Source: Halocafeteria seosinensis (lineage: Eukaryota > Sar > Bigyra > Bicosoecida). From it: a DNA stretch of 64,000 nucleotides. The DNA lies in assembly GCA_001687465.1 (NCBI GenBank), contig LVLI01000005.1, positions 62,001 to 126,000 on the forward strand, given 5' to 3'. Position numbers and translations under genes: made by a program. Position 1 is the stretch's first letter; every line of letters begins with the position of its first letter. Of this stretch, positions 28,828-52,800 are shown one piece after another. The notes under the pieces were generated by a model. That model searched no databases, was not told the DNA's origin, and worked only from the letters and a program-made list of their open reading frames with translations.

Positions 28828-31800
28828 CTACGGCGGGCATGGGGGCGAAGGGAAAAATGACCCAGGCTCGATAAAAAACTCGCTCATTCCCTCAGAGTTT
28901 TCAGCTGCCACTCTCACGTAGTATCGCTCTTGAGCCAGATTTTCAACTACCTTCTGTAGCTGTCCGTTGGTTTCAGCATCAATATGAAATTTCATCACAT
29001 TAGAGCTGAAATCAGGTGCTACACTAATGTGAACCTCGTAGCGGATGATTTTGACTCCTCCATCCGCTTGTTCATCCCTACCCATATTAACAGAACAAGA
29101 TCCTGGAACCTCCTCAGTTCCTGAACATGGGATTCCGTGACGCGGTATCAATGGTGGATGTGTGATTACTTTCAAACTCCCCCCACATCCAACATTAGCC
29201 GTGCCGTTCAGCACTGTAACATCAACGGGCCTACCGGGCCTTTGCTTGGCCAAAATAAGAGTTTCCGAGGCATCGGAATACATTCCGAAGCCGATACTGT
29301 TCGAAGCGCTCACCCTTACAAAATATTGCTGTCCTGCACTCAAATTTTCTATTGTATATGACTGAGAGGAGGCTCCCTCGACAGCAGTTACTTCGGCTAT
29401 ACCCTTGTGGGGAAGTCCTCCAAACCCTTCGAATTCTTCATCAGTGTCCCATTCTACCTGAAAGGAAACAATCTTGTCACCTCCCGTATTAGAGGGGGAT
29501 GAAAATCCTACAGTGATTTTCGACTGAGAAGTAACCCCTGCTTTGACGGAAAGCGGAGCTTTCGGTAGAGTGATAGGAGCAAGTTTTGAGGGTGTGGATA
29601 CTTGGCACTTTCCAAACCCAACAGAATTTCTGGCACAAACTCGTATCCAGTAGTCAGTACCTTGAGCCAAACCCGACAGAACTACACTAAACGGGCCCCC
29701 ATCGATAATATTGAAAAAGCTGTTCGAGAGGACAGAATGAAATTCCGAAGTCAAAGAATAGTCAACGCGGTACTCCACAATCACACTCCCCCCATTGTCG
29801 AGGGGCGCACTCCAGCTCACCCGTAGCTGAGATCCAGAGACCACTCTTACAGATACTGCGGTAGGCAGCCCCGGAGTTCTGGTAGGGGCAAGGGAGTCCT
29901 TGCCATCATCGGTTGTAGCTCCTTGGGGATTTCCATATCCGATTTTGTTGTAGGCAGTGACTCTTACGAAATAGGGGATACCCTGGACGAGGGAGGTTAA
30001 GGTATGGCCTTCCATGCAATTAAGCAGGTCAGGGTTTTCTCCCTGTTGCTCCTGGAAAATAATGACCGATGCGTTCGTTCCCGAGGATGTGGTAATCAAA
30101 TTCTTCGCCACCCGCATGTTCCAAGCGTCCCCACCATCTAAAAAGGTAACCCTCCAAGTGAATTCTCCTTCGTCAGTGCCGTCCACCCTCGTCACGTGCA
30201 CTGAATTTATAAAGTTGATATTTTCCAGATGACTTTGCATTGAGCCCGGGAACTCATTTGAAAGTGAGCTACACAATGGTTCTGCTGTGTCACAGAAAAC
30301 GTCGCTGACATTATACGCTGAGGCTTCCAATTCTTGTGTCCTGGACGCAACAGCTAAACTGGATATATCGAACGTTTCTTGTTGTTGGGAGCCCTTTTCC
30401 ACAACTAGCGCAAATGCTCCTCCGTCTATTGTGCCAGTCGAAGCAGAGGTGCGAATTGTCCATATCGCGTTCTCGGCATAGTTGGGACACTTGACAAACT
30501 GTCGGAGTGTCTTCGAAGCTTCGAACATAGCCACTGTACTCCATTCTACACGGAAACCTAATATATCCGTGCCCCCGTTCCATTTTGGAGTCACCCAGTC
30601 GACTTGCAGCGACGTTCCGGAGTTATTTACGGTGCTCATCGTCACGTTAAGAGGGGAGGCTGGTACAGCAAGTGGAAGGTGCACAATGCTGCTATCCACG
30701 CAGTAGTCAGCAGATGTCTCAGCACATTCTGCTATTTCGGACCGTCCGATGCCCCTCTCGTTTTCAGCTGAAACACGGACAGCGTATGAAACTCCGCGTT
30801 CAAACACATTTTCCAGACGACGGGAAGTCGTAGTTGAGTCGAGACGAACAGATGAGAAATCTAGAGGGGCCTCGTGAGGTACACAGCGACGACAGACAAG
30901 TGTACCGAACTGCATTTCGTTAGACGGATCTTCAAATATGTCGTGGTTGCCGTCGAGGGCGGTAGCCGACCCTGAAAGGTACGTGGTGTCAACAGAGAGT
31001 TCCCCGACTGGGAGTCCCGCAGGCAGGAAGTCAATCTCCCATGCAGTGCCCTCGCTGACTGCAGTGCTGGTAACTAATACCTCCCTAACGGATGTGAGAA
31101 AGGCTAATGTTTCTTGTAATACGGTTTGTGACACGTTGTGTGGCATGAAGGCTCCAAACTCGCTTCCTCCAACAGCAAGTCGGAACCATCCTTCCCCTAG
31201 AATGCGAAGATATTTTCTCTCAACCATCCCTTGTTTCCGAGTGCCCCGAGCTACATACGTCTGCTTAACAATGATACAATCTTGTCCTTGTCCATTACAG
31301 TTGCTTTCCGAAACCGAGGACTGATCAATCTTAGCTGCCGCCACCGGGGGATTCGTGCCCGCGTTACTAGTACCATCGAACCTTATAGTCCACTTGATAC
31401 CCGTGGATATTACCTCCGTGGAAACAGATATTTCCCCTGTACCTAAATACATCAAACCCTTTCTAATCGTTTCAGCAGTGGAGCCAACCTTTATTTTCAC
31501 GGATAGCTCGGAACTCTTAGCAAAACGGATCAGTACCTCAGCATCCAAATCCAGATCGTTAAATCCCAACGAAGACAAAATAGACACTTCTTGGACTTCA
31601 TGGCGATCCTGTACCTTCCACCATTCTACTCTATAGCCAGTAAGTGCCGAGCCACCGACATTCTCTGGAGCCAACCACTGCACTTCACCACTCTCCAAAT
31701 CACTATGTGAATCGGTGGTTGTAGAAATTGCCAAATCTTTCACCACACCGGGAACAGCCGTAGGTATGACAAATTCGTCGGCTTCTTGGAAGGGGCTCGC

Positions 31801-34800
31801 TCCGAACGATGTCCATGCTCGTATGCGTGTGTAGACTTTTTCTCCAAGGGGTAAGCTGCATAGATTCAAGATCAGCTGTCCTCCTGCTCCCAGTGTAGGC
31901 AAGTCCGTTACATTACCCGATACTACTAATGAGGAGAACTGTACATCAGAAGCAAGCTGATATTCATACCAAAGTTGGCCCGTACTTCCAGTTCTTCTCG
32001 GAGCATCAAACAAAATTTGAACGCAAGACTCCCTCGAGACTTGGCTCGTAACCGATCTTGGCGCCGAAGGAGGGACCTCTTTGGTTACAGTTGATGGAGG
32101 CATTGAGAACGTCCACCGGCGGTTGGTAACTATTTGGCTACTGTTAGACACCCAGAGGGAATTGTCATCAAAGCTAACCGTGTTTTCAGCACTGACTCTG
32201 ACAAATATTTCCGTCCCATTTTGGATGCCCTCACCTTCATACGGAGAGGCTCCGGGAGAACTAATCCGGCTTATTAAGAAGGTCAAATCTGACCCAGGTA
32301 ATATGTTCTCAGCCGAGAGCGAATTAGATGAAAATTCCGATGTTGTGTCCCATTCTACGCGATAGTTTGTCAAAGAGGAGCCGCCATTTGTTGGTGGTGG
32401 CATCCAAGAGACCAGCACTGCTGACGACGAAAATGGCTCTATGTGCACCGATAGAGGACCATCTGCGATGCCACGAGGAACAGCTTGAATTGTCGAGCTC
32501 CATTCCCCGATTCCTAGTGTATTTTCTGCAGCCACTCTGGAGAAGTATTCTCGCCCAGGCGTTAGATCGCGTATGTGAAAGCAGGAAGCACATGCTTCGG
32601 AAGTTACGCGAACTATTGCCCCACTCAAAGACTCCCCAACGTTAAACCTAAACGCCCTGAATTGAATTGAAGCTTGTCCGGAATATCCAATAACGTCCAC
32701 AGCCCATGTTGGAGCTCCTTCTGGACTATAGAATAGCTCATGTCGGTCTGAGGTATCACCGGTAAAAATTGTAGGCGCATTGTGATCACTTGCTAGTCCA
32801 AGGGAAATGGCAGGAAACTCAAACGAACGCACGCGAAACTGGATACCATCTACTTGAATGAGAAGGCCTTCTGGAACATCGAACGTGAGGTCTCCCCTCA
32901 GATACACAATCGAGTCACCATGAGTTGCATTGACCACCACGTTAGCAGCTGGGACGAAAGTTTGTTGCTTAGTGACGTGTACTACATCGATTCCATCCAA
33001 TGACTCCAACGACATTCTTACTTCCTCTTCGGAGGAGTTGCATGATATGCTAACGGTGTCTGTCTCGGTAAGCCCAACGTCCACGCTACAATTATACACC
33101 CTGGAGAAAGGGGAGGCCTCCACTCGCACCAACTGGGTCATAAGCAGTGAATTAACATTGACTACCATTGCACCTCGGTTGGCCGAGACGAGGGAAGGTG
33201 TAGTATCCCACTCTATCACATAGCTAGCAATATTGCTCCCACCATCCCGTGGGGGCACATTGAAGCTTCCACTAAGTGCATTCTCCGTTTCTTCAATTGC
33301 TGTTTGGACAGTTCTCACAATCCCAGTGGCCCGCAAACCGCGCAACTCGGTGGTATCTATATTCAACTGTCTAATGTTGAGGTTCTCAAACGTTATCCTC
33401 CACGTAGTCTCACCTGTAGACTTCCAGTGCGTACTCGATACGAGTACACTACCGGTATCTAGCTCATCTTCTAGAGCATTTGCCATGTCGGTATCAGACG
33501 CCTGGTGGCTCAACAGCGAGGTGATGCGGTCTCCCAAACTCAATGAAAAGTAACCAGTGAGTTTGGACCCTCGTTGTTTCGTGGTAACGGACATTGCAGC
33601 GCCAGCACCTTCCAGAGAAGACACTGTAGACAGCTGTAAATCCTCACCTGTACCTGGAGGGAATGTTACAGTCCAGTTGTAACCTCCAACCTGGTTTGGT
33701 CCTACTCTGTCGACAAGTATATTCTCCATTCCAGTAACTCTGATAAGCTCCGTCTGTAGCAGGAGCGCAGACGAGTCGGGTGCCAACGAAACAGTACTCA
33801 CTTGAGAGTTGCTTAAGTGGTCCTTGACCCTGAGAAAGAAATGGCCTCCTATAAAATTTCTCCTAACAGACCGCTCAGCTGAGCACCTTCCATTATTTAG
33901 TAGATCGTCCGAACAGGTCATTTCTGCGCTTGACTTTCCAACGACATCGAGCAGGGTAATTGTCCAATCCACGCTTCCACTTGATGACCTCACTGTCGTG
34001 GATACATCCACATCATTGATTCCGTCCAACTGTAGAAGTGATTTCCGTATCACATCACTGGTAGAATTGGAGGCAATCGACACGTTACTTCCGCTGAGCA
34101 CTACCAAGACGCTACCTGAGACACCGCCTGTTGAAAGTGCTTCGATTTGGAGATGGAACACTTCAGGAATAAATAGTGCATCCGTGCTTACAACTTGAAT
34201 AGAGGGAAGCATCGCTACTCCAAGGGAAATCTCTTGGATACCATAGACACGATTTACATGCTTGAGTCGATACTCCAGAGGTGCCGAGGGCTTTCCAAAC
34301 ACAATAATGCTGGCGGGATTAGACCAGTTGCCCTCGCCGACTTCGTTGCCAGCCCTTACTCTAGTGTAGTATCTTGTGCCTCCAACTACATCTTGGACTC
34401 GACTATGCATAGGCAGAAGAGACTCCTCCACATTGTCATGGATGTCCAGAGAAGCATTGGTCGGAGTAAGGTCGACATCCACTGGGTCAAGTTTGTTTTG
34501 GTTGCCCAAGTGAGACTGAAACTTCACTGTGTAACCGAAGCCATTAACAACGAATGCTTCATAGGTGCCTGATGGCAGGGCAACTTCCTCGGTGAGAATA
34601 AGCGTTGAACTGGTGACCAGTGGCCTTTCCATGACAGCATGTTCAACCGAAGTAGTCACTTCGTTTCCAGTTTCACAATCCACAACTGTAACATTGAACT
34701 GTTCGGACAAGAAAGTCAAACGATGCCAAAGGATATCATCCTCTTTAATTATAGTAACGACTATATCTGAATCATTGATAACACTAGAGATCTTCTCCTC

Positions 34801-37800
34801 GACAGATATAGCAGTGGCGTTGATGGGAAAGCAGGAAGTTTTCAGTGAAAGCCCCACAAATTGATAGCTGACATTCAATCCTTCTTGGGCACTCGAGAAC
34901 CCCAAAGCTGTTTGAGCATGTGTTGCTGATGCAAGACATGTAACTTCACTCAGCATCCATAACTTTGTGTCAGATAGTTCACCGTCAAAGCTGGGTCCCT
35001 CGTAGGGTCTATCTACGACGAAGCCGCTGCGCCCATTATCGACAACACTTGTCGCGACTGACACATTCTCGAAGCTGGATAGGTTCAGCAACCCACATTG
35101 TGTAGACAGCGTGGCCGTTAACAGGGATTCACCAGCCATTGTGATTACATTCGTTCCCGTAAACCTTAATGTAAAATAAGTTACATTAGCTTCCGATTCC
35201 TGCGCAACTATTACTTTCCCACCGGTAAGCGACGTAAGTAGTTTTGACAGTGATTGGGATGAGGCATTGGAAGGTATGCAAGGAGATACCACACGCACCC
35301 CCGCCGGAGGGGTCCAGGAGAACACCAATCCTACGACGGTGTCTGCGACAATCGTCACATTTTGGATCAATTCACCCAGATCCACCACAGAGGCACTCCA
35401 GTTGTATATCCGCACATTTTGACCTAGATACAACTGATGCCGCTGCAGATCCTCAAATCGGATAAAGTCGTCACCGGTTCTGACCGTAACCCTCCCGAGC
35501 TCATAATTTGGAACATCCATTGAAAAGTAGCCGCGAGTTGCTCTTGGCTCGAACCTGATTTTCGATTTTGCATCCAAGTAAATACTGCTGTCTGTCATAT
35601 TGTTATCGAATGTAACCTGAGAAGAGCCATGCGCTAGTGTGACATTCCCGAGACTCCAGCCAAAGTGCTCGTTTCTTGTTACCATAACTCTTCCCACACT
35701 TTCCAGGTCTTCTAACCTGGTCGCCATCAAATCTGCGGAGGCAAAGAAGGGAATCTCTTCGGTAGTTTTGTTGTTGAATTTCAACTTGTAGCTTCCATCC
35801 AATGGGTAGGAAAAGTCAGACTCCATAGATACTCTGGCTCTTGCGTTAGAACCTTGAAGTCGTGAAGTTGTCTCGAAAAACCCCACGTTGCTTGTTCCTG
35901 GGGGATAGGCCAATCCCTGAATGAGCCCGGGAACGGATCGTATAATCAGAGTATACCGTATACCTCCCATGGTTGGTGTGAGAACGGGAACTCCTTCATG
36001 TCCAGCACCAAAGTTCGAGTTCTTCCGTACAGAGACATCACCAACATTGCTTAGCGACATGACCGCTATTCTGACTCGTTGAGAGTCCTCATCGAAACGG
36101 AGGACAACAGGACCCCTGTTATTGCCAGCAAGATCCACTTCAAATTCTCCTCCCAGAGCTTGGCTCCCCGACTGTATCTCCACAACTACTGCGTCCCCAG
36201 TGAGCTGCTCTTGAACAATTTCCAACATTTCTCGATTACCCGCTCCTGCAGGTAGCATGCCAGCATTATCTACGAAGGTGACAGTCCAAGTTACTCCCCG
36301 GAATCTTCCCATTAATTGTCTGCTCACAAACGCTTTATTGATGGAGCTGAGTGACGCTAAAGCATTCCGCAACTCCGATGCTGAGGTGTTGACTGTTAAT
36401 GTTCTCTCGGTACTGCTGATTGTGTCGTTTAACCCCCACTTTCCAGACGTAACTAGCCCAGGTTGGATTTCTTCACTGACAATGGAGAAGGCTGTCGTTG
36501 TGGAATTTCCCTCTAACAAGCAAGTGGAGGGGCTACAGACGCAATTTATTCCTCCACAAAACGTGTTGTCAGTAACGACAGAAAGGAGAGGTACGTCACC
36601 TGGGCTATGGCAACTGAGGGGACCAGTAGGGCAGTGGGCAGTCCAAGGATCGCGCTTGAACGTAATACTCCATGTATACGCCCCCGTGAAAGGAGTACTA
36701 CTCATAGCCCTGCTCACCTCTACATCTCCGATATTATCTAGCTCTTCAAGTATGACCTCCACTGAATTCAATGGATCCTCCTCCCTTGTGGGTTTCGCGT
36801 CGTGGCGAATGGCCCGTGTTGTAACTGATTCGCACACCAACGGTAATCCTAATTCGATGGCGGTGTCACAGTCATCGAGAGTAGTGTTGAACCTCAAACG
36901 GAAGTAACCATTCACAGGAGCTACACCGGTTTCCAAAATTTCAGAGGCACAATTTATCATCGAAAAGTCAGAGTTTGTTGTAGACAATGTGGAAGAGCGA
37001 CACGAAATTTCAAACGGTAAAGGGCCAACATTCTCACCCCATCCTCTGCTAAACCCGGAGCTCCAGTCTTCTACGGAATCACCAGAGAAAACATTTGAGA
37101 CAAACGTGACTCTCCAGGTGTATGCTTTTACTGTATTTGATTCCCCTTCCAACAGGATGCTGTCAGTACGAGATACCTCAATGCTGTCTGTAGTCGGCAA
37201 CGCCTCCAAGGCAGCTCTCACGGCAGCGCTACTCGCATCGAACAGAAGAAGAGACGTGACGGCTCCTTTGTAAGACAAACGAAAACCGCCGCTCAATTGG
37301 TTTCCGTTGGTTACCGTATTAATAACGACGTCCGTGGAAGCCTGTGAATTGGTTCCGCGAGTGTTGTCCTCTACCTGGAGCTGCGGAATGTCTCCTCCAT
37401 TCAAATCGTCCTCAAATGTAATCCTCCAAGTGTATCCCTGTACACTGTTCGGTTCAGCATCTACGGAAACCGAAATATTCCCAATAGTAGATATCTTCTC
37501 TAGCTTCTCTTGGATTTGTGAAGTAATGTTGTCTCTAAGGAGGCTAATTCCTTCATGAACTAACGTGATGCTCTCCGTTGATTCATTATCGAAGGTTAGC
37601 TTAAACGACCCCCTTACTGAGTTTCCTTCTTGCACTGTTTCTACTGCTGCAGAAGCATGCAGGTCGGTCTTATCAGACGATGATACCATAAGGGAGGAAA
37701 GGATTTCCATCTCAGGTACGTCTCCGTCACTGCCTTCAAACTCTACCGTCCAGCGATAGCCACCTGTCCAGCCTTCACCCAAGAGGGGAGCTAACTCCCT

Positions 37801-40800
37801 CCTGGTGACAATAACTTCCGGATGAGGGCTCCCATCTTGCTCTGATACCAACTGATGAATAAACTCCTCCATTTCGCTAATTGTAGCGTTTGCCCGCAGG
37901 AATAACGAATCATCTGAGGGAGCATACCCTGGTATCGATATTCGGAAAGTCGAATTTTGATCGATAAATTCTCCCTCCTGGCAACCATAGCCTCCTGTTT
38001 CGCAGAGATTTTCGACAATGTAAATATTGCTGTTCGTCAGATTGCTCGAGACTTCAGTAGGTACCAATGGTCGAAGGTCGCCGTCTGTTGCAAGGAACTC
38101 AATGCTCCACACAAATCCACCTGCGTGATCGGGGCCTTCCCGTGTAACGTTGACGTTATCCAAGTGGGGCAACGCATTCAAAGCAAACTGTATGCTGCCT
38201 GTGCCTGTGGCCGGGCTGTTAAACGCCAGTGTGTTTGTGGAAACAGTGTCGCCTGACGCGAAGTCTGTATAGGTCAGAAAAAAATCACCTTCAACTATTT
38301 GGTTGCCTTTTGTAACCCGGCTAATGCCAAGCGGATCAATGTCTGGACAGCTGTCCGCACCCTCGCAATCCGTACGTGGAATCCTATGATTTTCCGGAAT
38401 TAGAGCACTATTTGGGATTACCCCGTCTACAGCTGACCCATTAAAAACAACTAAATATTGTCGAAAATTGCTGTCGTTTAAGTTATCTACCCGTGATATC
38501 TCCACATGACCAGCCAGCTCACCCTGATTGGAGGAAAAATGGACTTCAAACTCATCCGGGAGAAATTTGGTGGGGAACTCAACGTTATACTGACAACTGG
38601 AGAGCTCCTCCTCTCCCGAACTGGTACCACACTTGCATATTCCAGAGGTTCCCTGAAATCGGCATTCATTTATGTCAAAACGAACAGTCACAGTGACGTC
38701 GTCGTCATCAAACGACATGTCCGTTCTTCCTGAATTGTAAGATATCACAAGTCTATCCTCAAAACTCGTACCGCTCGAGGGGAATTCACCAACCTGAAAC
38801 TCAGAACCACATTCTACTGTCAACTTGTCTCCAGAGACGGATACAGTCGGAGATGCTGTGCCGAAGAACGTCGAAGGATCAGAAAAATAGTCATCAATCT
38901 GTTGCTTAATGTCTAGGATATCAGACGAATTGTCCACAAATATAGGTACCGCTTGCTCAACATCAAAAAGAGTTCCGGAAGCATTGAAGGCAAATGTTAC
39001 TCTAGAACTGTTTGATTGCTCTTCGCCGCAATTCACGAGGAACTCGAGTGAATGCAACATCAGAAGATCGTCGGTAAACAATTCCAGCTCCACTATTGCA
39101 GCTCTACCTGTGTACTCATCCCTTAACGTGATCATCTTGACCTCATCAACATCTTCCGATGTAGTCTGAATTCTTTGTATTTCCCTCCGAGGACCTGATG
39201 GGTCTGCCCCGGAAATCAGGTACTCCGTAGCATTGGTGAACGTTACGATTTGTTGCTGTTCGGTGACAGACTGCCCAGTTGCCGTAACCGACTGGACCTC
39301 ATTTACCCGCTGAGCGAATGTTGAAATAGATTGAACCTGCGGCTCAACAGGATCCGATTGTATTGTAACCGTTTGAATTTCGTCTCTCCCACCTATGTCG
39401 AGCGATATAGCCTGAATCTCATTTAGAACGTCCGTGACGACATCAATGTGCTGTTGCTGAGGCTCGACAGAACTTGTCAGATTGATATACTGGCTCTCCG
39501 GAGATACAGAGAAGAACGAACGACTAAAAGAGTCAAAGGAACTGTCCATTGTGTAATCTAGAGTGAAGCTCTCTAACGTCCTTCCACCATCGTACAAAGG
39601 AAGACTCCACATAGCGTCGAAAGAAGTTGTACTGTGTGGACTCAATTTAAGGTCAACAGGGGCAAATGGCACTCGACGAGTGGGCACTGCCGTCGGAGGG
39701 TCTGTCACTGCAATGGCACCAAATCCCTCCGCGCTTACTGCCATAAGCCGGACCGCATACTCCTTACCCGGTTCCAATGAGGAAGAAACATTACCAATGG
39801 TGATAGTGCGCTCCCCAATAACAGCCTCGAGTGGTTGACTAGCGTTGACAATCATGGACTTCATTGGAAGGTCTGTTACCTTCGAGAATGTCCTTTCCGT
39901 CCACTCGATGACATAATACAGAATAGGAAGTCCCCCGTCTCCCCCAAAGTGAAATCCTTGGTCTGAAGGAGGGTCCCAACTAACCTTCAACTGAACGTCA
40001 CTGAGAACACCCAACTTCGCGTCAATGGGAGCCCCGGGTCTTAGTGTTCGGGGAATAGCAGAAAGAATGTTACTGAACTCACCGAAACCTGCAGCATTGG
40101 AAGCCCTAACACGGAAGTAAGTGCGTTTGCCTGTTTCTAGACCAGCAACATTGTAGAAAGCCTCCTGAGAACCACTCCAAGCCGATATCCGCGCAGAGTT
40201 AAACTTGGAAAAATCTACGGACTGACTCCATTGCACTTCATAGAGATTTATTCCGAAGGCACCCTGGGGTGGCAGTAGCTTCCAGATCACTTTTACCTTT
40301 GACTGAGAGAGGATAAGAGCTGAAAGCAGCTCCACGTCATCTGGAAGGGCGATCACCGTTTGCGGCTGGGTAGCTGCCGAACTTCGTCCAACACCTGCCT
40401 CCAACGAAATCGAGGTGACCCGGACACTATATTCAAAACCGGTGGCCAGCGGACCCACTGTGTATGAGACTCTGTTCCCAGATGTCGATCCTGGAACAAT
40501 CCTGCTTCCGTACTGTGGAGACGTTGCTGCGGACTGGAGCAGGTGGGACTTGGCGACAACGTCCTCACCAATTAGTCCCGCCTGGTGAATGACCAGCGCC
40601 CTCCGTTCGCAGCAAGGAGCAGCAAATGTAATCATCCAATCGAATCCATGCACATTCAGATTACGTGTAACTTTGATCGTGCCAACGGATTTAAGTTCTT
40701 CTATAGAACCGGCCAGAATGGCACTGGAGGCGTTGTGAGGAATGGGTCGTGTGCGCTCGTTCCCTAGACTTAGCCTAAAAGTGCCCCCGATGGCGTACTC

Positions 40801-43800
40801 TCCTTTCTTTACAACAAAAGCTGCTATATTTACGTTCGACCCATCTATTTGAGTAGCATTTGTCACTTCAAACAGTGGTTGGGGACCCACATGAAGCTGG
40901 CCAAGGAATGTAATTTCCCACACGAAGCCATGTCCAGGGAGAAACACGAGGTATTCGGAGAAGGTTGGGCCCATGAATTCTCTGTCAAGGACTAAGTGAG
41001 TTACGTTGTATGACACCACCGCAAATTCGTTGGCATTTTGCACGTCCCCAAATTCGATTTCAGAATATGCTGCCAGACGAATCGTCATGCCATTTATCAG
41101 CTGGGAAGTGATATCCTGTGCGTCACCATTGACTTTGAGGATATTGCTGTTTTGCTCTGCACCAAAAGTCCCAAGCATGCGCACCCAAGAATCAAAGCGT
41201 CGAACGGAAACCTGCCCAATGTTTGGCATCCTAGTGAGAGTATCCCCTAGCTGTGAGGCAGTTGCTTGGAAGCTTATTGGTTCACTTAGCTTGCCTCCAA
41301 ACTTAACTCGGAAGTTACCGGAAATATCGTCTTCTGTGGCAGTTGTCTTGAGGCCAACAACTTCCCTAATTGGGGCCGATGCTCCGATTGTAACGACGTT
41401 TACCCGTTTTTGAGGAGCTTCGTCCCACCATTCGACTTTATACTGGCTAATAACCGCGCCTCCGGTATTTGAAGGAATTCCCCATTCAACTACCACCTTG
41501 TCCAACCCTTCCTTATACGTGGAAACTGACGATGGCTCAGCCGACTTTGTGATGACGCTTTGGGAGGCAGTCTGACTGGGAATACTAAAGCCTTGAGAAT
41601 TCCCAGCGAATACTCTACAAAATTGTTTCTGTCCCAATGGCAGCTCTTCCATCCGTGCTTCTAGAGGACGAGATCCTTTCACAACTCTAAGTGACTGCAC
41701 TTGAGAATTAAAAAGCAAACCTTCGGGATTATCTGACAATTGTAGAACCAATAAAGGAAGTAGTTCTGCTCCGCGTTCGGGGTCATCTGTAGTGTGAGTA
41801 AAAGTGACAAGCCACTCGATTCCAAATCGAAACCCAAGACTAATGTCTGGCTTGATAGCGCGCTCGAAGTCAGTTACCACTCGCTTGATGGATCGGGACT
41901 TTACGCTAACAGTTCGAATCACAGGTATCGACTGTAGTTCTTCTTGGACTTTTGTGTCGTTTACAGGGAGATCAAATTGCACACTATACCCACGGAATGT
42001 TAGGGTAACCGTTGCATTTCCGTCTTCAAGAAGAAACAATGCCTCTTCTTCACTGTTGGCTGACATTTCGATTGATAGTGACTGGGTTTCAAATGTATAC
42101 GCGTTAGGCGAAATGTCCGCATTTCCATTCTGCCTTTTCCAGATGTGAGTGTGCAGCCCTGTCCCTCGAAGACCCGAGGAATCTATTGAAAGTAGCTCCA
42201 GATTACCACGCGGTCGACTGAACGTAACGACCCAGCGGAAACCGTTGTGTCGGCTTGCTCGCGTGACTCCTATGGGGATATCGGCAATTTTGTAGAATCC
42301 CAGGATGTTAGCGAGCTCCGAACCGAGTGACTCAGCTGTCACGTTCCAGGGGAGCCTCCAAGTTTCGGCTGCTCCAAATGATAGTAGAAAGAAGCCGCCT
42401 CTGCCTTCCTGGCTTCGGAAAGTAACATCTATGACCTGTATATCGTCTTCTATAGCATATGTTGAAGAGCGTGTGACGTCATCCCCATAAAAAGGGGAAA
42501 GAGAGCACTCAAGGAGATATTGAGATACTCTTTCGCCTCCTGAGTACAACGGTGGCCTCCAAAAGAAAGTGAGTCCAGCATGCATGCTGTCTTGCACCAG
42601 AACTAGATCTCTTGGACTAGATGATGGTTGTGCAAATTCTGGAGTCTCCACAGAGGCAGTTGCAATTTTTCTCCATGCCTTTTTGCTTCTTGCATACACA
42701 ACCGACTCAAGTTTCTCGTTGTTAGGCAATGCAAGGTATGATCCACTCATTCTCCGCAACGGCACGACGGGTCTAAGCAGATCTACCAACACCACTTCGT
42801 CTACAAAAGGGAATGAACCATTTCCGCACACAACTGGCAGGAGTAAGGGGATAGTTTCAAAATGGTTGCTTTGCCCTAGGAAAGTAACGTAGAAGCTTTC
42901 GTCTTTCTCAACAACTACTGTGTATAGACGACAGTCCGCGGAGGAATTGCGACACCCCCACCTACGAAAGAGTGTAGATAGGTTCTCTTCTAACTCAGAG
43001 ACAGGCAATCCCCAGGAAAGGCAATCCTCCGTAACTTCGTTATCTAGGGAAATTTTGAACGTGATATCATCACCATCTACGGGTGAAGACATCGGCAAAC
43101 GGAGAGAAACTGTCTGAATAACAGCGTTTGTTCCTACAGTTATCGTGTCAGCAGGCTCTTCAGGACCGTCTATCACCAGATGCGACCCAAGTGCAGAGAC
43201 ATCATTTTGCTGAATTCTCAGAGACTCCAAAGGAGCGTCGGTGGAATCAAACGCAAGATACCATTCGTAGCCATCTGTCTGTTTGAAACCGCTTCCTTCA
43301 ACAACTTCCCCAAACGTCCAGATTGCAGGCGAACTCGGATCATCACGATCACAGATGCAATAACCGGGAGAGCAGTCCTGGACATTACAGAATGAGAGTT
43401 TGATTCCATTCAACATTATCATTTTGCCAGCACAATCTCCAAGCTCACTTGTCGAGAACAGCGTAGACGAATTCTGGTGAATGGTTATCCTTCCTCCAAT
43501 TTCTCTCCAGGATACGTCTCTGGCCACGCGCAGTGAGCCGACATGGTTGAAGGATCTCAGTATCCGGGAAACCTCTACTGCCGTATCATCAACATGCAGA
43601 AACTCACTGGTACTTTCCTCCAAAGACAGTGTGAAACCGCCAGAGAGTTTTCCTCCAGAACTATAAGCAGACAACCTCACTACTGGCAGTATGTCGGCGC
43701 GAGCATTAATCCCTCCTAGGGTAGAAAAATCTACCCATGGGGTAGGGTCACTGAAATCGCTCTCAATAACCCACATTCGTCCCTCCAGAGCGGTTTGCTG

Positions 43801-46800
43801 AAACACTTCATCAACTGGGAAGATTTCTACCGACCCAAATACCTCCTGCAATTGGGACTTGATTCTTGACGGAGAATCATTTACAAAAATATGAACTTCC
43901 TCCGAGCTAGAAAACTTCAGCGAAATGCTTCCAGTTAACGAATGACCCGTCGCCACTGACAGCACTATGGCAAAGCTCTTCCTGCCAGAAGGTAGACATG
44001 GAAACGATGAGGCTTCATCTCGTTGAGTGCACCGATTGCGCGTGTTTGCGGGCGGAGTCTTGACTCTAACTCGAAACTCATGGTCTTCTATTGTTTCACT
44101 CAGAATACTAGCTGACACTTGTGGTAGAGAGCCCTCCCCACAGCTCAGGAATGAGCTTTCGACGGTAATATTCGTACCCTCCGGATGAAGGAATGTCCTA
44201 AGCTCAACTGTAGCTTCTTTCCTCGATGAAGTAGCCGTTCCAAATGTCACGGAACTATTGGATACAAAGGAAAGTAACGACAATATACTTGAAATTTCAG
44301 AAGAAGAAGAATTTACATCCAGTAGAGGTGTAAGGAAAGAGTCCTCGTCATTTTGGAACTTTAATCGGTAACTTCCAAATATAAAGCCCATGGAGCACTC
44401 CAGTGAATACGATGCCTGTATCTTACCTTCAGTCAGAGTTTTACCCATTACAACGTCTACCACGCTAATGAAGCTAGATAACGGACTGTTCAAAGTCAAC
44501 TCAGCGCTGTGGGCATTCAAGCTGCCTATTGACGCAGACACTGGAACCGGAGGTGACTCAGCAGTCAGCAGAAATGGGACAACGGGAGTTTGCGGTCTTC
44601 CAGAACCTTGTGAATTAACCATTTTAGGACCAGTTGCGGACCTACCGGTAGAAGCCGCTGTAGCGACCAGATGGTCTTGCGGGGAAAATGAAAACTTTGC
44701 CAATTGGTTAGGTTTAATAGGCTGTTGAACTTCCTCCAAAAACAGATGGACGTCTCCTCCAGTTACCGTGTGGAGATCGATGCCCCTAACCCTGATAGTG
44801 GAAAATATTTCGGAACTGCTGCAAAACGTAACTGTCCAATTGATTTCCGTGCTGGCAGAATTAGCTTCTCGGTGCACTTTCGTTGAGCCGATGGACGGCA
44901 AACCTAGTGTCAGTAAATCTCGTAACTCATCAGCGGATGTATCAGAATATACTGTGAGTATGCTTCCGTTACTAAAATCGGATATGGCAAAGCTTCCTAA
45001 TATTTGGCTCGTCGCTGAAAGCGAGATTCTACGAACAGCAGGTGTCGCGCTATCCAATGTGTGTAACAACGATGAGTTGAAGTCTTCAGGGGAAGAGGGT
45101 CGAACGACAATGGTAGAGACATTTATCTCGGCTGTTGGTGCTACCGCTTGCCCCAAAAGCCCTGTATCGTTTGCGGTCGATGCCTCGTTGCTGCTAGTGA
45201 AAGTTATCAGCCAGTCGTACTCATTGTTTGCCGTAGGTCCAAATCTAGTTACTTGTACAGTTGCAACCCCAGGGAGACTTTGTAAGGCAGCCACTAACTC
45301 AGACCCTGTAACTGATATGGGCACAGTAACCCATGCTCTACTCCTGACAGAGAAGGCCCCCACTAAACTTACGGGCCTATCAAGTTCCACCAGCTGCACC
45401 CTGTCCCCAACAACAGTTATATTTACAGCTGCGGCTACAACTTCGTTGTTAAGTAGCAGGGGATCTTTTAATACGACGTCGGTGTCAGTGTGCAATATAA
45501 TAGTGCGATCTTCTCCAGGTAATAAGACTGCTGGTCCTAACGACGTCGACTCTTGTCTCAGTGAGACCGATTGCTCATTTTCAGGATGCTCCCACTGAAG
45601 GTAAATTCTATCTTTTCCAATCGGTTCCTCGGTATTCTCGGATACTCTATTTAGGTGAGATCCTACCATTACTACATCCCCGGGAGCAAGCACTTCACGC
45701 AGATCAAACCCTCCTACGACGAGATACGCCCTCCGTGGATGGTCAGATAAGTCTATTTCAATACAACTGCCACAGAGCAATCGAGAAACCTCCCCTTGGA
45801 AATTCCAAGAAAGTCTCATAGTTAAGTTCTCATCCAAGCGCTCACCGGTAATGGAGCGTGTACTCAGTTTGGTGACCTCTGGAACGAAGAAAGTTTCGCC
45901 AGGCTGAAGCCGAACAACGTTGGACGTTGGTGATATAACGTTCCCTTCATTATCCTCGAACATGGAGCACCCGTTCTCGGAGAAGATGACTTGAATAAGG
46001 TCAATCGGAGGTTGCACGGATGGATCCATGAAAAGCACCTTAAATCCTAGAGTCGACGGCGATTGATGCTCGAGCTGACTGTGAACGTCATTAGACTTTA
46101 ACATCCACGAGAGAGCTGCATCAAGTTCGGCTTCTGTTGCACTAAAGTCTATGCATGTACTCAATGAACTACCCAGCTTAAGCTGAAATTGACCATCAAA
46201 GACATCACCATTCGTGGTCACGTTGACAAGCTGCTGTTCTTGCTGTCGCGTAGCACGTCCGGCTGTAGAAAAACTATAGGCTACAACCTCGTCGCCACCA
46301 CTTCCAAAAGCAGATAAGGTATGCGGACGGAAGATGCTCAACTGTGCTCTAGAGGTATCAACTTGCTCCAGCTCCGCAAAGGCAGGTGGTCGAGGTGGTT
46401 CCCGCGGAGTAAAAGGCCCCGCAACTTCGGAGGGAGCGCTGTACCTTGAAATGCCTGCGGCAATATCGATGACTCTGACCACTCGAACCCAATACTCGCG
46501 ACCAAACAACAGCTTGTCATTCTGCAAAACTGTTTTAGTTTCAGCTGCATGAATTTCAATCTCAGGCCGATTCATGCTTGCGGTGCAGTCAAAACTAAAG
46601 CGCTCAAAACTATATCCGCGACCGCCTTCGAAAGAGACAGAGCTTGCCAAATCTTGATTAGATGCACGTACTAACATAGAAAAATCCTCAATAAGTTCAT
46701 GGAGATCTTCCGTCTCGATCAAAACATCTGGAGGAAGAGTTGCGTATTCAATCGTCAAACACGCACTGTAATTCCAATGGGGTGAAAAGTCTCCTTGGCT

Positions 46801-49800
46801 TCTGACATTCAGTAACTCGAAGACTCCTTGCTCAGATATTGCGTTTTCAACGACTGCCTCGTCGATTTGGCTATCCAGGGATATGGAGAAAGTAATGCTG
46901 GTATTCCACTCGGCAATGCTAGAGCTCCAATTAAGAGTTATGTTTCGCTCCCCACTTGAGGACAGATCCAGTTTCGAAAGCTTCAGTTGAGTTGTGAGGG
47001 GTTGCTCCCCACAACGGCTTGAGAAAGTGTCGAATGAATCCAGTTGTAGAATGAACTCCTGAGATGACTCCATTGTATCGCTGGACCAACTGATCATTGT
47101 ATCTCCATTTTCCTCTTGCTGAATTCCTATAGCACTAGGTGGGGTTACAACGGTGCTCACCGGCACCAACGCCACCAATGGGTGCGCAGAAAGTTCTGGC
47201 CACTCAATTAGATGCATCTGATCCCTCACTCCAGCAACTACAAATTCTCCGATTCCCACATTGTTTGCCGCCGCGACCCTGGCGAAGAATTTTCCTGTAA
47301 CAGCAAGATCGGTAACCGTTTGCGAAATCATCTGCATTCCGTCCCGTAAATGGTTAGTCCCTTTGATGACTTCGAATACAGTTATTCGTGGATTGTCAAT
47401 ACGCATCAAAGGAACGTCGCCTACATGTGACTCATACCGGATGAGCAACTCCTCTCCCTGGCATATTTTGCTCCCATTATTCAACGGCGTTATATCACCG
47501 ACAAAAGTGATAGACTGTAACAGTTCTACAAACGCGTTGACGGAGATGTTTACTGGAACGTGCTGGAGACTGCGTCCGAATATCTCAACGTTGAAGTACG
47601 AACCTTCTTGCTCGTAACCAGAAAGGCATTTGATTCCTTGAACTTCCCGCACGGAGCCGCTGGAAGCAGAAACAGGGCTACTTGTTACGGAAAAGAGACC
47701 CGTTGCGTCTACAATCAGGTCATGTACACCCGACCGCAGGGCACTGACAAATGTTATAGTCCAAGTATAACCATGAAAAGGTCCGGCATTCTCCATCAAG
47801 TAGGAAGATCCTCGATGTCGCCTCCTTTGGACTGATACGTCTATCACGTCAGGTAAAGACTCCAAGGCGCTCTCTACTTCGCTCGCCCCAGCATTCCAGT
47901 CTAACTGTGGAGTTCGCTTTCCATAATAAATTAAGGAAAACGTTCCGCCAATGCCAGTTGAAGGGGAAGTAACAGTGAAAGACTGGATATCAGGCTGGAC
48001 TATCATCTCTGGGCGGACGAACTCGGAGCGCAGTGGCTTTCCTTTTCGCGAGTCAAAGCCCAGAGAAGAATCGACTTCCAGCAGGTAGTGTTGCACGGGA
48101 GAACCTCCATCTCGCAGAGGAGAGTCCCATTGGATTTCGATTTCACCCGCCTCGAGCGGCCGCATGTGCACCTGCAGTGGGGCTGATGGTGGGACAGTGT
48201 GAACGTGAAATGGTGATGGGTGACCATCGACCACCTCGGAAAACCCAAACCTGTTCGCTATCTTGACTTCTGCGGTGTACAACACGTTTTCGCGTAGACT
48301 TTGCAGTAATACCTCCGTCACCAACGAGATGAGAAGTGAGGCCCTGCTGGCATCTGTAGCAAGCACTGTATTGCCGGCAACAAGTAAGGGGCCTGGAGGA
48401 GCTGAAGCAAATGTGATACGCCATTTAAACCCGGAAGAGGCCAGGGATCTTCCAACGTGGACCAAAGATACGGATGGCAGTTTTTCTAAGAGATGTTTGA
48501 TCTCCGCCGCGGTAGCGGTTGCACGAATTGGCGAAGTGAACTCTGGAACGTAGAGAGGAGCAAAAAACGCTTCATGGGCGGGAAAAGTTGCATGGCCCAT
48601 ATCTTCATCAAATAAAGCAATAACGAGATCTTCTACTTGGGATACCTTGAAGATTGTTTCCGAGTCATGTCCTATGCGGACGAACAAACCATCAGGGATA
48701 CTCGCTCGAGACACTTCGCTCACTACGGAGAGGTCGTGGGCATTACGGGAAACATTGATGCAACCCCAGAGCGTTGATTCGCGGAAAACAGGTTGCAATA
48801 TCAGTGAAGTTCCCTCATATGTGGCAGGAACTCCCGTACCGGGATGCCCGAGCGTAATCGATCGCGAAGTGACATTGAGTACTCGAAACATTTGATTGTT
48901 CACTAGGATCCGCTCAGTGGGACACATGACTTTGTCCAGATTGTTGCACCCATTCTCGGAACTAATAATCATGCTTCCGTGATCGAAGTCGAAGAGGCAA
49001 ATGTTACTACCACTCTCAACTTTGTTGACGAAAGTGCCATTGAAGGCACCGATAGCTAAAGTGAAATGACCACCAGTTACTGGTGCAGCGTTGGTTGAGA
49101 TCTTGACCTCATGGATGTCATAGCGCAGCTGCTGTTCTATCCTAGATGTGACTGTACTGCTGTCGGAGACTTCAACAACCAAAGAAGTGGCATCTCTTGC
49201 TGGCGTGAATCCATCCATCGGGTACAGAATGTCCATTTTTGCAGTCCGAGTATCAAGAACTTCCACTGTTGGGACTTCTGGAGTGATCGGGAACTTGCCA
49301 AGAAGTAGCCCATTATCCAGATACGTCCAATTGCTGATGCCTAAAGGGGTTCGACTTGATAACCGGACCCGGTACCGTATGCCTTGGACCAAACCATCTA
49401 GCTGGTGGCTGTGCAAGTCGGTGGCCGAGCTTGAGTTGACTACATCTAGCTGATAATTGTTGGGCCAGAACCCCTTATCTCCTTCTTCCGCGTAGAGGAC
49501 ATCCACTGACAGCGTCGGGAGCGAGAAGTAAGTATTTGTTATAAGCAACGGCTGCGTCGAATTGGTAATGAAAAAATCATTGAAGGAGACTCTGAACTCC
49601 CGCGTGAAGTTAGATGGTACTGTTTCCGAAACAACCACCCGTCCAAGTCCAGGAAGGCGTCTTAGAGAACTTTCAAGATAGTCTACAGTAGCATTTGGTT
49701 GAATCCATTCGGTTGAACTCACTCTTGAAATCCTCAAAGCTGATGAAAAGGAGGGGAACACAAAATCGACATCTTTCGAACAGTTGCGGTAATCTGCTAA

Positions 49801-52800
49801 TGGCACATTCCGGGCATCAAACTTCATAAGACCACTAGCGTGGACAGAAAATTGCTTATTGTCAACGAGAATTAGGTCACACCGATCCAAAACAGTCGTT
49901 AAGTCTTCTTCAGGTAGAAGCAGAGTCTTGGTGGTGACAGTGGAATCCACAGTGCTGTTGGAACGTAAGGAAGTAGTGTCTAGAATCAGAGGCCGAATTG
50001 GGTGGAGTTTGGAGCCCATGGATGGTGCCGTAAAAACAGCTTTGAATAGTATCTCGCTTGTTCCTGTTCTCAAGTTATTGCTAACATCAATCTTAACGGA
50101 GTGAACATTGTCGAGTGACAAAAGGGCATCCTGGATACCCATTTTTGTGGCGCCAACGGGTATTCCACTGGTCGTGGAAACTACCTGAAACTCGCAATCT
50201 GTACAATGACTTGTATCGAAAGACAGCCGAAAAGTCCCCTCCATAGGACTATCACTCCAGATGCGGACTTCCTGAACCACAGCGGCAGAAGCTTCGCCGA
50301 CTCGCTCATTCGGTTTTCCGCTTTCACTGTATCCTAACTTGAAATAGCCGGCACTGGACCATTGAGTATCATCTTCCAGTGACAACAACAAAGTTTGAAC
50401 AGCATACCGCCCAAAATGCGGAAAAAAACTCCTTCTGCTGAACCGTTCGATGAGAGTCTCAACCGTTCCCCCGTGTTTTGGGAAAGAATTTAGTACCCAG
50501 GTCAAATTGACGGATGAGGCAGTAGTTCGTTCGTAGGAGACACTGCTAGGGGGAAGGACTGCTCGCGGAACCAACAAAACCGCAGGTACTGGCAGCGCGT
50601 ACGGGCCGAAAAGAGCGGTAGGATTATACGCCGCAAGGCGGACATAATACTCCCGCCCAGGCATCAACGATTTCCCGGTCATTGGAATGTTATATATCAA
50701 GGGGAAAGTTGGCTCACAATTATCCACGACGACAAATCCACTTGTGCTTGACAACCCCTTCGTAGGGGAGCTAAAGTTCAAGAAGTCAGCATTATCATCC
50801 CATTCTATTTTAAATTTTGTAACTCGATCCCCTCCATCAAATGGTGGAGAACCCCATCTTATCTGTAAGAGATTGGGCCCTGCAAGTTGCACAACGGGTG
50901 GACTGTTTTGATCGTACAAATTGGTTGGCTTTGACGGATGGACTACTGGCGGTGCTAAGTAGCGAGGTTGAGACAATTCAGCAGGGCCAAACCCAGCTGC
51001 ATTGGCGGCGGTAACTCTGATGTAGTACCGCTCTCCTGGAGTTAGTCCACTTATGGTCGTTTGTACTTCATTCGTGTCCTCCGCTTCGATAAGAATACAG
51101 GCAAGTCTGTCAGAGCATAATCCTTCAATGATCTCGTCCTCATTTTGTCTACTGATTGTCCAGCCCCCATTGGTACTTAGAACACTTAATGAGATGTTTG
51201 GTCCTGAAAGAGCACTCGCAAAAATGATTTCGAGATCGAAACCGTTATCTACGACGTGAACGACACCAGAGTTGGGTAAGCCCGACAAGGCCAACTCTAT
51301 GTCAGCGGCAGTAGCGTTCTGTTCTAAGGCGGAGCTCGTATAGGCTCCTTGCATGGCACATCGTCCGCAAATTGATGTATCCAGGAGTAATGCAAATCGT
51401 TCGAGAGGTCCATCACTCCGCGTCAAAGTAAAAGTTGGCTCAGTGTCCTGTAGAAAAGGATTTGATAGGGAATTTTTCAATGCGGGAGCCCACTCGATAT
51501 AGTAATGAGTGACAGAGTCTCCTTCATCTGACAGTGGCGCATGAATTCTCGTTGCGATAGTTGTAGCTAGTTGAGCCTTGTCTCCCGTTCTTGTCAGGTG
51601 TATTGCCACGCGCTGAGGTGCTAAAGGTGCAGAGAACGCCTTTACAGAAATTGGCGTGGTGAACAAACCGTTCCCCGCTTGGTTAACTCCTCGCACACGG
51701 ACAAAATACACGACCCCCTGACGCAGGTTACTCAGCTTGAATTGCTTTACCATATCAGGCAGTTCATCCGAACTGACATTGCGTTGATGTGCCGGATGAC
51801 CATTTGAGGAATTGAAGTTGCTTGACGTGTCCCATTGAATTTCGTATCTCCGAATAGAGTCCCCTAACAACGACGCAGTGTTGTGCTCTCCGTCAACCCA
51901 ACTTACCCAAACAAAGGACGAGCCAAAAACTAGCCTCGATCCCACAGCAGATCCTTCGAATTCTGTCAATGTACCGGGTGTGGCAGCCGGTAGGATGCAC
52001 TGCGAGCACCCAGGGACATCAGCAATACAACCTGAGGTGGTGACATTGCACACGGGTCTGGCAATTGCAGCGGGGCCAGTTCCTCTTTCGTTCACCGCAA
52101 ATATACGAAAAACTAGGGGCTGTCCGGTATGACATATCGGAATTATAGCTTTAATAACTAGGGACGTTGCGTCCGGGCTAATCTCGCTACAGTTTCCGCT
52201 GAGTTCACAGCGTGAATTAGCTTCCGGGAAGAAGCCGAAGATTTCCCTCCATTCAACCACATAAGTTGTAGTATTGCCTCCATTTGAATCAGATGGTAGC
52301 CATTCTAGGGTCACTAGGCTTTTGTTTGATGCGACTCCAGCAACCGTCGGCGCTAAAGGCATTCCGGGGGTGGCCTTAGGTGCAACCGACAACGGATTTT
52401 TACTATCAGAACTCCTGAGCGTGCTGAAAGAGCCAACGCCTTTGCTGTTAACACCAGCACCTTTCAAAAAGTAGTGTGCACCTGGCGTTAGAGAGAAGTT
52501 ATCGTTCAGCGATGTAAACTTAACCGACGCTGAAGGTAGTCCATTGAAAGAGCTAGGGTTACAGTCTTCAACGGTAACACTTGCCGGGCCCACATTAGAA
52601 AATTCGGAGCCAATAAAATTAACATAAAATAGTGTGGATTCTGTCCCGATCGCATTGGTTTCCCGCGAGTTTGCAAAATTGGCATTTGCTCCCGCGCTCA
52701 CGTTGTAAAGTTCTTTTATTGCAGACGTGAAGTTTCCAATGGTTAAGTAACTACTCAGACACTGAGACTCTTGCATGCCGTGCCGCAATTTGAAGTGAAA

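Follow-up and report, generated by a model that had tools for sequence, protein, structure and literature searches.

Apparent recurrent nesting of phage-like modules within FN3 domains of a giant predicted protein of Halocafeteria seosinensis

Distal tail proteins are called "evolved" for the carbohydrate-binding modules inserted in them, and titin is defined by I-set Ig and kinase domains beside its FN3 domains. Both are points of comparison for the giant gene described here, from the bicosoecid Halocafeteria seosinensis, which lies in a 64,000-nucleotide stretch of contig LVLI01000005.1 (assembly GCA_001687465.1, forward-strand positions 62,001 to 126,000; hereafter the window, whose own numbering we use) and in which FN3 domains appear to be interrupted by a module, A, that is in places interrupted in turn by another, B. 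A survey of nested insertions (order A1-B1-C-B2-A2; PMC13114784) gives 48,551 insertion events, includes a three-level case in NdhH and a six-level case in cyanobacterial RNA polymerase, and finds the ends of inserted domains nearer each other than those of other domains. Given these cases, three nesting levels alone are not new. The Halocafeteria protein would follow the same principle as the nested cases in that survey, a domain within a domain with the inner one interrupted too, but differs in that the nesting recurs along one chain, modules run in series within single loops and the host is FN3. A likeness in workings is offered by the "evolved" distal tail proteins that lactococcal phages carry (PMC10688798), in which an extra module is inserted in a structural tail domain, and another report (PMC13033339) describes how phage Douge has Ig-like domains, on its capsid and on its tail tube, that bind cell-wall glycans.

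The gene occupies the minus strand, as do all of its features given below. A frame of 14,550 codons without interruption, seen as an open reading frame and in the gene model, has its stop at 28828 and extends past the window end (28828..64000, on to ~72480 on the window scale; L009/L010); we viewed it whole by joining the window to the neighboring stretch L009. A sequence-only reading had described, at 32.5 to 33.3 kb, one FN3 holding A, which in turn holds B, and its landmarks (YVIEWDTTPSL, a V-x-V strand, an insert of ~70 amino acids [aa], TWAVDV, and GREYFSRVAAENTLGIG) all fell on the minus strand, over frame aa 13064-13338 (window 32467-33291). In chain order, the FN3 N-part (strands B-C, ending YVIEWDTTPSL; aa 13064-13101, 33178..33291) is identified by an N-half profile at 37.2 bits and by the joined fn3 match. 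It is followed by the first part of A, comprising a lead strand, a helix, and the V-x-V strand (aa 13102-13179, 32944..33177; 25.6 bits, or 29.0 bits with a profile trained without this copy), and by B (aa 13180-13250, 32731..32943), recognized by homologue alignment and at 57 bits by a profile for which this copy, together with those of seven homologues, served as the seed. The second part of A, from the TWAVDV strand onward (aa 13251-13285, 32626..32730), rests on a joined score exceeding that of 482 of 500 shuffles, and the FN3 C-half (strands E-F-G; aa 13286-13338, 32467..32625) matches a C-half profile at 41.7 bits and Pfam fn3 by itself at 26.1 bits. This FN3 is probably a single domain broken between strands C and E by a plug-in A that is itself broken in a hairpin by B, as the arrangement of the sequence suggests.

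Support for the outer level comes from the whole frame. Profiles of the FN3 N-half (strands A-B-C) and C-half (E-F-G) were built from the protein itself and later extended with 16 homologues, and matches were retained down to ~4 bits. Merged, the matches comprise 25 N-halves and 28 C-halves that alternate in 48 of 52 steps; when the order of the halves was shuffled, the mean was 26.4 alternations and 0 of 100,000 shuffles reached 48. The gaps from N-half to C-half are bimodal, with 10 of 24 pairs 26 to 45 aa apart, as plain FN3s, and 14 of 24 separated by 127 to 1718 aa; A was detected inside 13 of these 14 long gaps. Linkers from a C-half to the next N-half measure 12 to 47 aa in 19 of 24 cases.

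The separated halves also complete each other. Without its insert, the FN3 of the segment matches positions 11-83 of the fn3 profile (PF00041, cut-off 25 bits) at 39.6 bits (6e-10). Removal of inserts gave a single fn3 match over both parts in all nine FN3s tried, and eight of the nine exceeded the cut-off. These include FN3s split by two A modules (aa 13578-13930, 30691..31749; 34.4 bits joined) and by one (aa 13936-14195, 29896..30675; 44.5 bits), as well as one whose halves (aa 10938-10976 and 12695-12717, 34297..39681) stand 1,718 aa apart, with ten A modules and a run of xEVQxIxT repeats between them (36.6 bits). The FN3 at aa 9954, split by two A modules (aa 9948-10310, 41551..42639), remained under the cut-off at 18.1 bits. 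Scanned alone, nine of the ten halves of five FN3s match fn3 at 15 to 26 bits; the C-half of the segment is the one already cited as passing the cut-off, and its N-part alone gave no Pfam match. Lone N-halves end at fn3 profile positions 36-39 (four of five matched) and C-halves begin at 43-51 (five of five), which places the split between strands C and E in those five FN3s.

The inner level was assessed with two A profiles. The first, iterated, detected 56 copies along the frame, all but one scoring over 8 bits. The second was made from 49 copies with spans under 95 aa, leaving out that of the segment, and with it we scored the parts of nine copies carrying B or a long insert against 500 shuffled C-parts; random partners from the same protein were unusable as a control (0 to 32 of 200 equally good), the protein being full of A parts. 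For seven copies the rejoined parts beat all 500 shuffles, and for an eighth they beat 499. The seven comprise the homologue counterparts of the segment's A in P0015, P0027, P0108, and P0014, the copies of the giant itself at aa 10388 and 9614, and one of the two counterparts of the aa 10388 copy (P0116; P0121 reached 499). First parts end at A profile position 42 in eight of nine copies (50 in P0121), and second parts begin at 46-48 in eight of nine, the second part of the segment's own A giving no start position. The first profile bridged the insert at aa 10388 and 9614. Further B matches in the frame lie at aa 7512-7574 (34 bits), where B stands between two A modules and outside either, and at aa 7834 and 3837 (14 to 15 bits).

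Judged by its sequence, A is akin to modules of phages and planctomycetes. Across its length it has a significant match to the phage "CTE-like" module, as found in 9d93_Ma, "Tail tip cage, gp23," of what we take to be mycobacteriophage Bxb1; against PDB, the A profile matches three tandem copies in that chain (E = 3.2e-25), with weak matches also to 9d9w, which is a major capsid protein (E = 0.03), and to the tail tube protein of 9d93_Ja (E = 0.8). A tblastn search with one A pair returned 457 phage records, the best being the minor tail protein of mycobacteriophage HINdeR (E = 5e-8, 33% identity, 72% of the query), whose A copies by eye have the EVQ lead strand in common with those of the giant. 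Of 27 A copies scanned against PHROGs, 3 hit "major tail protein" (best 8.9e-7) and 4 hit "tail sheath" (best 0.0011). The phage virion modules thus share A with the giant but differ in their host, a tail protein (probably a distal tail protein) instead of FN3, in that B was not seen, and in being parts of small virion proteins. A profile of 11 phage and bacterial A copies, themselves picked with the frame's own A profile, gave 23 hits in the giant frame but zero once that frame was reversed or shuffled. B gave no comparable signal: its candidacy as kin of a phage tail module was unsupported in comparisons with Pfam, PHROGs, PDB, and phage records.

Among prokaryotes, a genome scan with a Streptomyces prophage-like A copy returned 87 candidate stretches, and 17 loci among them were confirmed. 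Ten belong to Actinomycetota (including a Solirubrobacterales metagenome-assembled genome [MAG]), five to Planctomycetota, and one each to Hydrogenedentes and an Armatimonadetes MAG. FN3 halves were undetected at all 17, although profiles made from the giant may miss bacterial FN3s. The five planctomycete frames (L020, L021, L023, L024, and L027) hold 2 to 12 A matches each, and four of them span the entire stretch examined (>2,800 aa); they have the same module as the giant but differ in that FN3 halves were undetected beside it. Two of these, Gemmataceae frames of ~3,000 aa on one contig (L023 and L024, with 8 and 12 A matches), carry autotransporter-like repeats by eye. When viral contigs were scanned with one A pair, 8 stretches came up and 0 were confirmed. 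Pfam contains no model dedicated to A; POTRA (PF08478, cut-off 23) reached 13 bits for the frame's copies, and homologue P0125 as a whole gave a marginal, summed 23.3 bits, its single stretches all falling under the cut-off. A-bearing proteins also gave heavy-metal-domain matches.

The phage proteins provide a natural insertion series. HINdeR gp26 (660 aa), Kratark gp26 (446 aa), Trixie gp30 (337 aa), and a Lillie homologue (290 aa) align as one tail protein in which A occurs at a single internal site, four times in HINdeR (one match weak), once in Kratark, and not at all in Trixie or Lillie (minor tail gene loci of these actinobacterial phages: L011 1676-3658, L031 298-1638, L030 295-1308, and L032 298-1170). 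Its copy number at that site thus runs from several through one to none, with empty sites among them, and A accordingly behaves as a plug-in. One A also lies within the tail sheath of Pleione (residues 73-151), and in the unnamed homologue P0125 A splits two IPT/TIG domains at about TIG profile position 59; rejoined, these score 53.2 and 57.2 bits versus 38.9 and 37.8 for their first parts, the second parts being without a match. A-bearing long frames elsewhere in the Halocafeteria genome measure 10,171 aa (C24), 8,190 aa (C244), 3,210 aa (C255), and 1,781 aa (C262). By eye the C24 frame (L036, G000:C24:103500-113499) is IPT/TIG-like, with A seeming to split TIG domains, and the C244 frame (L037, G000:C244:11000-20999) has cadherin- or Big-like repeats and holds A. 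Since A is present or absent inside unrelated hosts, its two ends should lie close together, which would most simply account for its ability to be nested. We propose tentatively, as something a little short of an even prospect, that A is an insertion-specialized plug-in of phage virions, bacteria, and stramenopile giants that has moved horizontally and reseeded the loops of unrelated folds (phage tail protein, tail sheath, FN3, and IPT/TIG), and that the giants of 8,000 to 14,600 aa in the Halocafeteria genome grew chiefly by recursive plugging together with tandem copying within the plugs.

The arrangement is conserved. Homologues are labeled as a golden alga (apparently Mallomonas, P0015), Phaeothamnion, and oomycetes (Phytophthora ramorum P0111, Pythium, and Aphanomyces), with many more unnamed. 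Among 32 A-bearing homologues we took the 12 closest to the C-terminal part of the query (P0012, P0014, P0015, P0021, P0027, and P0107-P0113; seven matches at E = 0 and five covering >90% of the query region), of which one is an oomycete record and one a golden-alga record; the other 20, left unsorted, represent other parts of the protein or other proteins. All 12 keep the C-terminal FN3 order N-AA-C N-A-C N-C N-C, P0021 at a looser cut-off, which indicates that the nesting is old, not recent. The A(B) unit inside the segment's FN3 aligns in seven of the seven homologues aligned. Run lengths of A vary at one place, with three modules before FN3 strand B here, four in P0012, and five in P0108 and P0109, and the FN3s of this protein hold 0, 1, 2, 4, or 10 detected copies. 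This variation within a fixed outer FN3 order points to tandem copying within the inserts as a further driver of growth. The proposal that the gene grew by domain-into-domain insertion therefore stands in its insertion part, but its exclusion of end-to-end duplication does not, given A runs of 1, 2, 4, and 10 copies; insertion appears to have set up the framework in the distant past, with tandem copying filling the inserts. Each FN3 may have been plugged separately, or one nested FN3 may have been duplicated; on an FN3 tree that addressed a single origin of nesting there were 6 changes, and 65 of 500 shuffles were equally low.

Several observations weigh against the nested reading. Of 58 placed A modules, 29 lie between an N-half and its C-half and 22 between a C-half and the next N-half; another 2 have a C-half on either side, and 5 come ahead of any C-half. 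Given the 22, not every A is shown to be inside an FN3. The FN3 at aa 1357-1619 has a long gap without detected A. At the place of the segment, the rejoined FN3 of two homologues (P0012 and P0108) scores only 16.9 to 20.1 bits against the cut-off of 25, which slightly lowers our confidence in the nested reading. The segment's own rejoined A was equaled by 18 of 500 shuffles, so that B-in-A leans there on orthology, and the profile from uninterrupted copies bridged the insert in 0 of 9 native copies. Searches with B yielded nothing significant in Pfam, nor in PHROGs (lowest E = 0.03), PDB (0.12), or the phage records (3). Finally, the packing of the FN3 halves against each other in space is something we infer; what can be read from the sequence itself is the order of the parts, the apparent completeness of the rejoined FN3 and A, their conservation, and the kinship of A.

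These points could be taken to mean that the modules simply follow one another in series and that the FN3 halves are decayed separate pieces, and the tandem bacterial A copies, without detected FN3 halves, fit such an arrangement as do the 22 A modules just described. The latter are spread over several settings: nine lie in aa 1956-4864, the filamin/PA14 region, three precede strand B of the segment, and the remaining ten sit in stretches where FN3 halves went undetected, while the first five A modules of the frame precede the first C-half and have their matching N-half in the upstream exons. Against modules in series, the halves alternate far above chance and cover complementary parts of the fn3 profile, the long stretches fall from N to C with short C-to-N linkers, and the order is conserved; we hold a purely serial arrangement to be highly improbable. 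Another possibility pairs each half with a half of a neighboring FN3, by domain swapping along the chain. Direct support for it is none, although inserts of 500 to 1700 aa would slow local closure; in order along the chain a C-half comes after every N-half, plain FN3s stand between the nested ones, and related phage proteins bear the same kind of module at one host-domain site, so that swapping seems very unlikely.

The number of levels is less firmly fixed than the outer break. B might be an elaborated hairpin of A, leaving two levels instead of three, in keeping with its nearly constant position within A and its lack of a significant library match. Yet A copies lacking B look complete, one B stands between two A modules, and the B pattern is conserved across homologues, and we regard the hairpin alternative as unlikely. 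The likeness of A to phage modules, in turn, could reflect convergence of a simple beta-alpha repeat, since such convergence is possible among short repeats and even the best phage match shows low identity. A single-sequence match at E = 5e-8, a profile match to PDB at E = 3e-25, the common EVQ lead strand, and 23 matches set against none in reversed or shuffled controls make convergence very improbable. Three nested levels, FN3(A(B)), remain the reading we prefer for the segment. The earlier claim of insertion at loop positions, twice over and recurring, is accordingly backed by sequence evidence from halves, rejoining, and shuffles, with the segment's own B-in-A copy its weak point.

The recurrence had been placed at three further positions. 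At 40.9 to 41.2 kb there is a clear second FN3(A(insert)) with one more A (aa 10309-10712, 40345..41556), identified by half and A profiles, the joined fn3 match, and the shuffles. Its long insert (~aa 10428-10508, window 40957-41199) has no B match, and the same place in P0121 has B at 82 bits in the order N-A(B)-A-C. At 43.2 to 43.6 kb an A with a long insert was found by A profile and shuffles (aa 9614-9759, 43204..43641), with FN3 halves undetected nearby. The third position, 35.3 to 35.7 kb, was not confirmed as an equivalent: it contains two partial A matches ~100 aa apart, B being undetected between them, and sits inside the FN3 split by 1,718 aa. In that same FN3, soon after strand C, are tandem xEVQxIxT mini-repeats of ~15 aa (window 39091-39480, aa 11001-11130). 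Mini-repeat runs of this kind resemble repeated lead strands of A, and similar runs follow the FN3 linker in homologues.

The FN3 of the segment may itself be split at two loops. Three further A modules (aa 12796-12856, 12879-12955, and 12976-13044; 33292..34245, by A profile) precede its strand B, and before them lies, by eye, a possible strand A (PSAPLEYRLKHV; 34246..34311), which would make the A-B loop the second interrupted loop. The order of parts and the linkers of homologues agree with this possibility; a strand-A profile test lent it no support, 39 to 453 of 500 random segments being equally good (8 proteins), and adding the putative strand raised the Pfam score by only 1.4 and 3.2 bits. 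Just ahead of the FN3 C-half is a CxxC motif (CASC, window 32581-32592), both cysteines of which are invariant in 11 of 11 alignment rows and could form a disulfide or a metal site at the mouth of the insert.

We envisage A as a portable module of ~100 to 110 aa that would need only a loop as its seat. The FN3 halves would be expected to close beneath it, as presumably happens in the phage tail proteins with and without A, and runs of A within one loop would grow by tandem duplication. The product would be a very long chain of FN3 (elsewhere of filamin and PA14) with A and B modules projecting sideways, most likely a secreted cell-surface protein or an extracellular fiber or coat that displays binding modules; by analogy with phage tails, A may bind something. 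Titin is likewise a giant FN3-rich chain and is the NCBI name of P0111, but the giant differs in its signal-peptide-like start and its interrupted FN3s, and I-set Ig and kinase domains were absent from the eight 1000-aa stretches scanned with Pfam (8,000 of 14,550 aa), in which fn3, filamin, and PA14 were found. The "titin" label of P0111 looks FN3-driven.

Known nesting consists mostly of single cases, whereas here one module interrupts FN3s repeatedly, IPT/TIG domains in a homologue, and a phage tail protein. A keyword search of the open-access PubMed Central literature found no report of FN3 as a serial host in one giant or of a plug-in link to phage or planctomycete modules. The nesting would explain why only broken halves of FN3s show up when proteins of this sort are searched for domains, and it draws attention to a cross-kingdom module now missed by annotation. 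The gene could serve as a test bed for the tolerance of a fold to large insertions, the folding order of nested domains, and the growth of the longest proteins.

The assembly, at 30.6 Mb over 605 contigs, is that of a small eukaryotic genome. The gene model for the giant encodes 14,621 aa and adds three short upstream exons, with predicted GT-AG introns of 59, 55, and 59 bases. Its predicted start, MKLMKLYIYLTIIYTTVGVAVA, is signal-peptide-like by eye and is followed by an FN3 N-half, EVQ repeats, and A modules; with parts in that order, the first FN3 of the protein, by eye, looks split too. Filamin-type (Pfam, 2.5e-31) and PA14 (6e-13) domains lie mid-protein (window 60829-63828). Inside the gene, two open frames run antisense on the plus strand (36257-36907, 216 aa; 44768-45598, 276 aa) and are perhaps by-products of the minus-strand coding. 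In window 1-28000, four of ten scanned frames exceeded the Pfam cut-off, and these neighbors are an EamA transporter, a class 3 lipase, a tubulin-binding cofactor C, and a DUF1538 protein.

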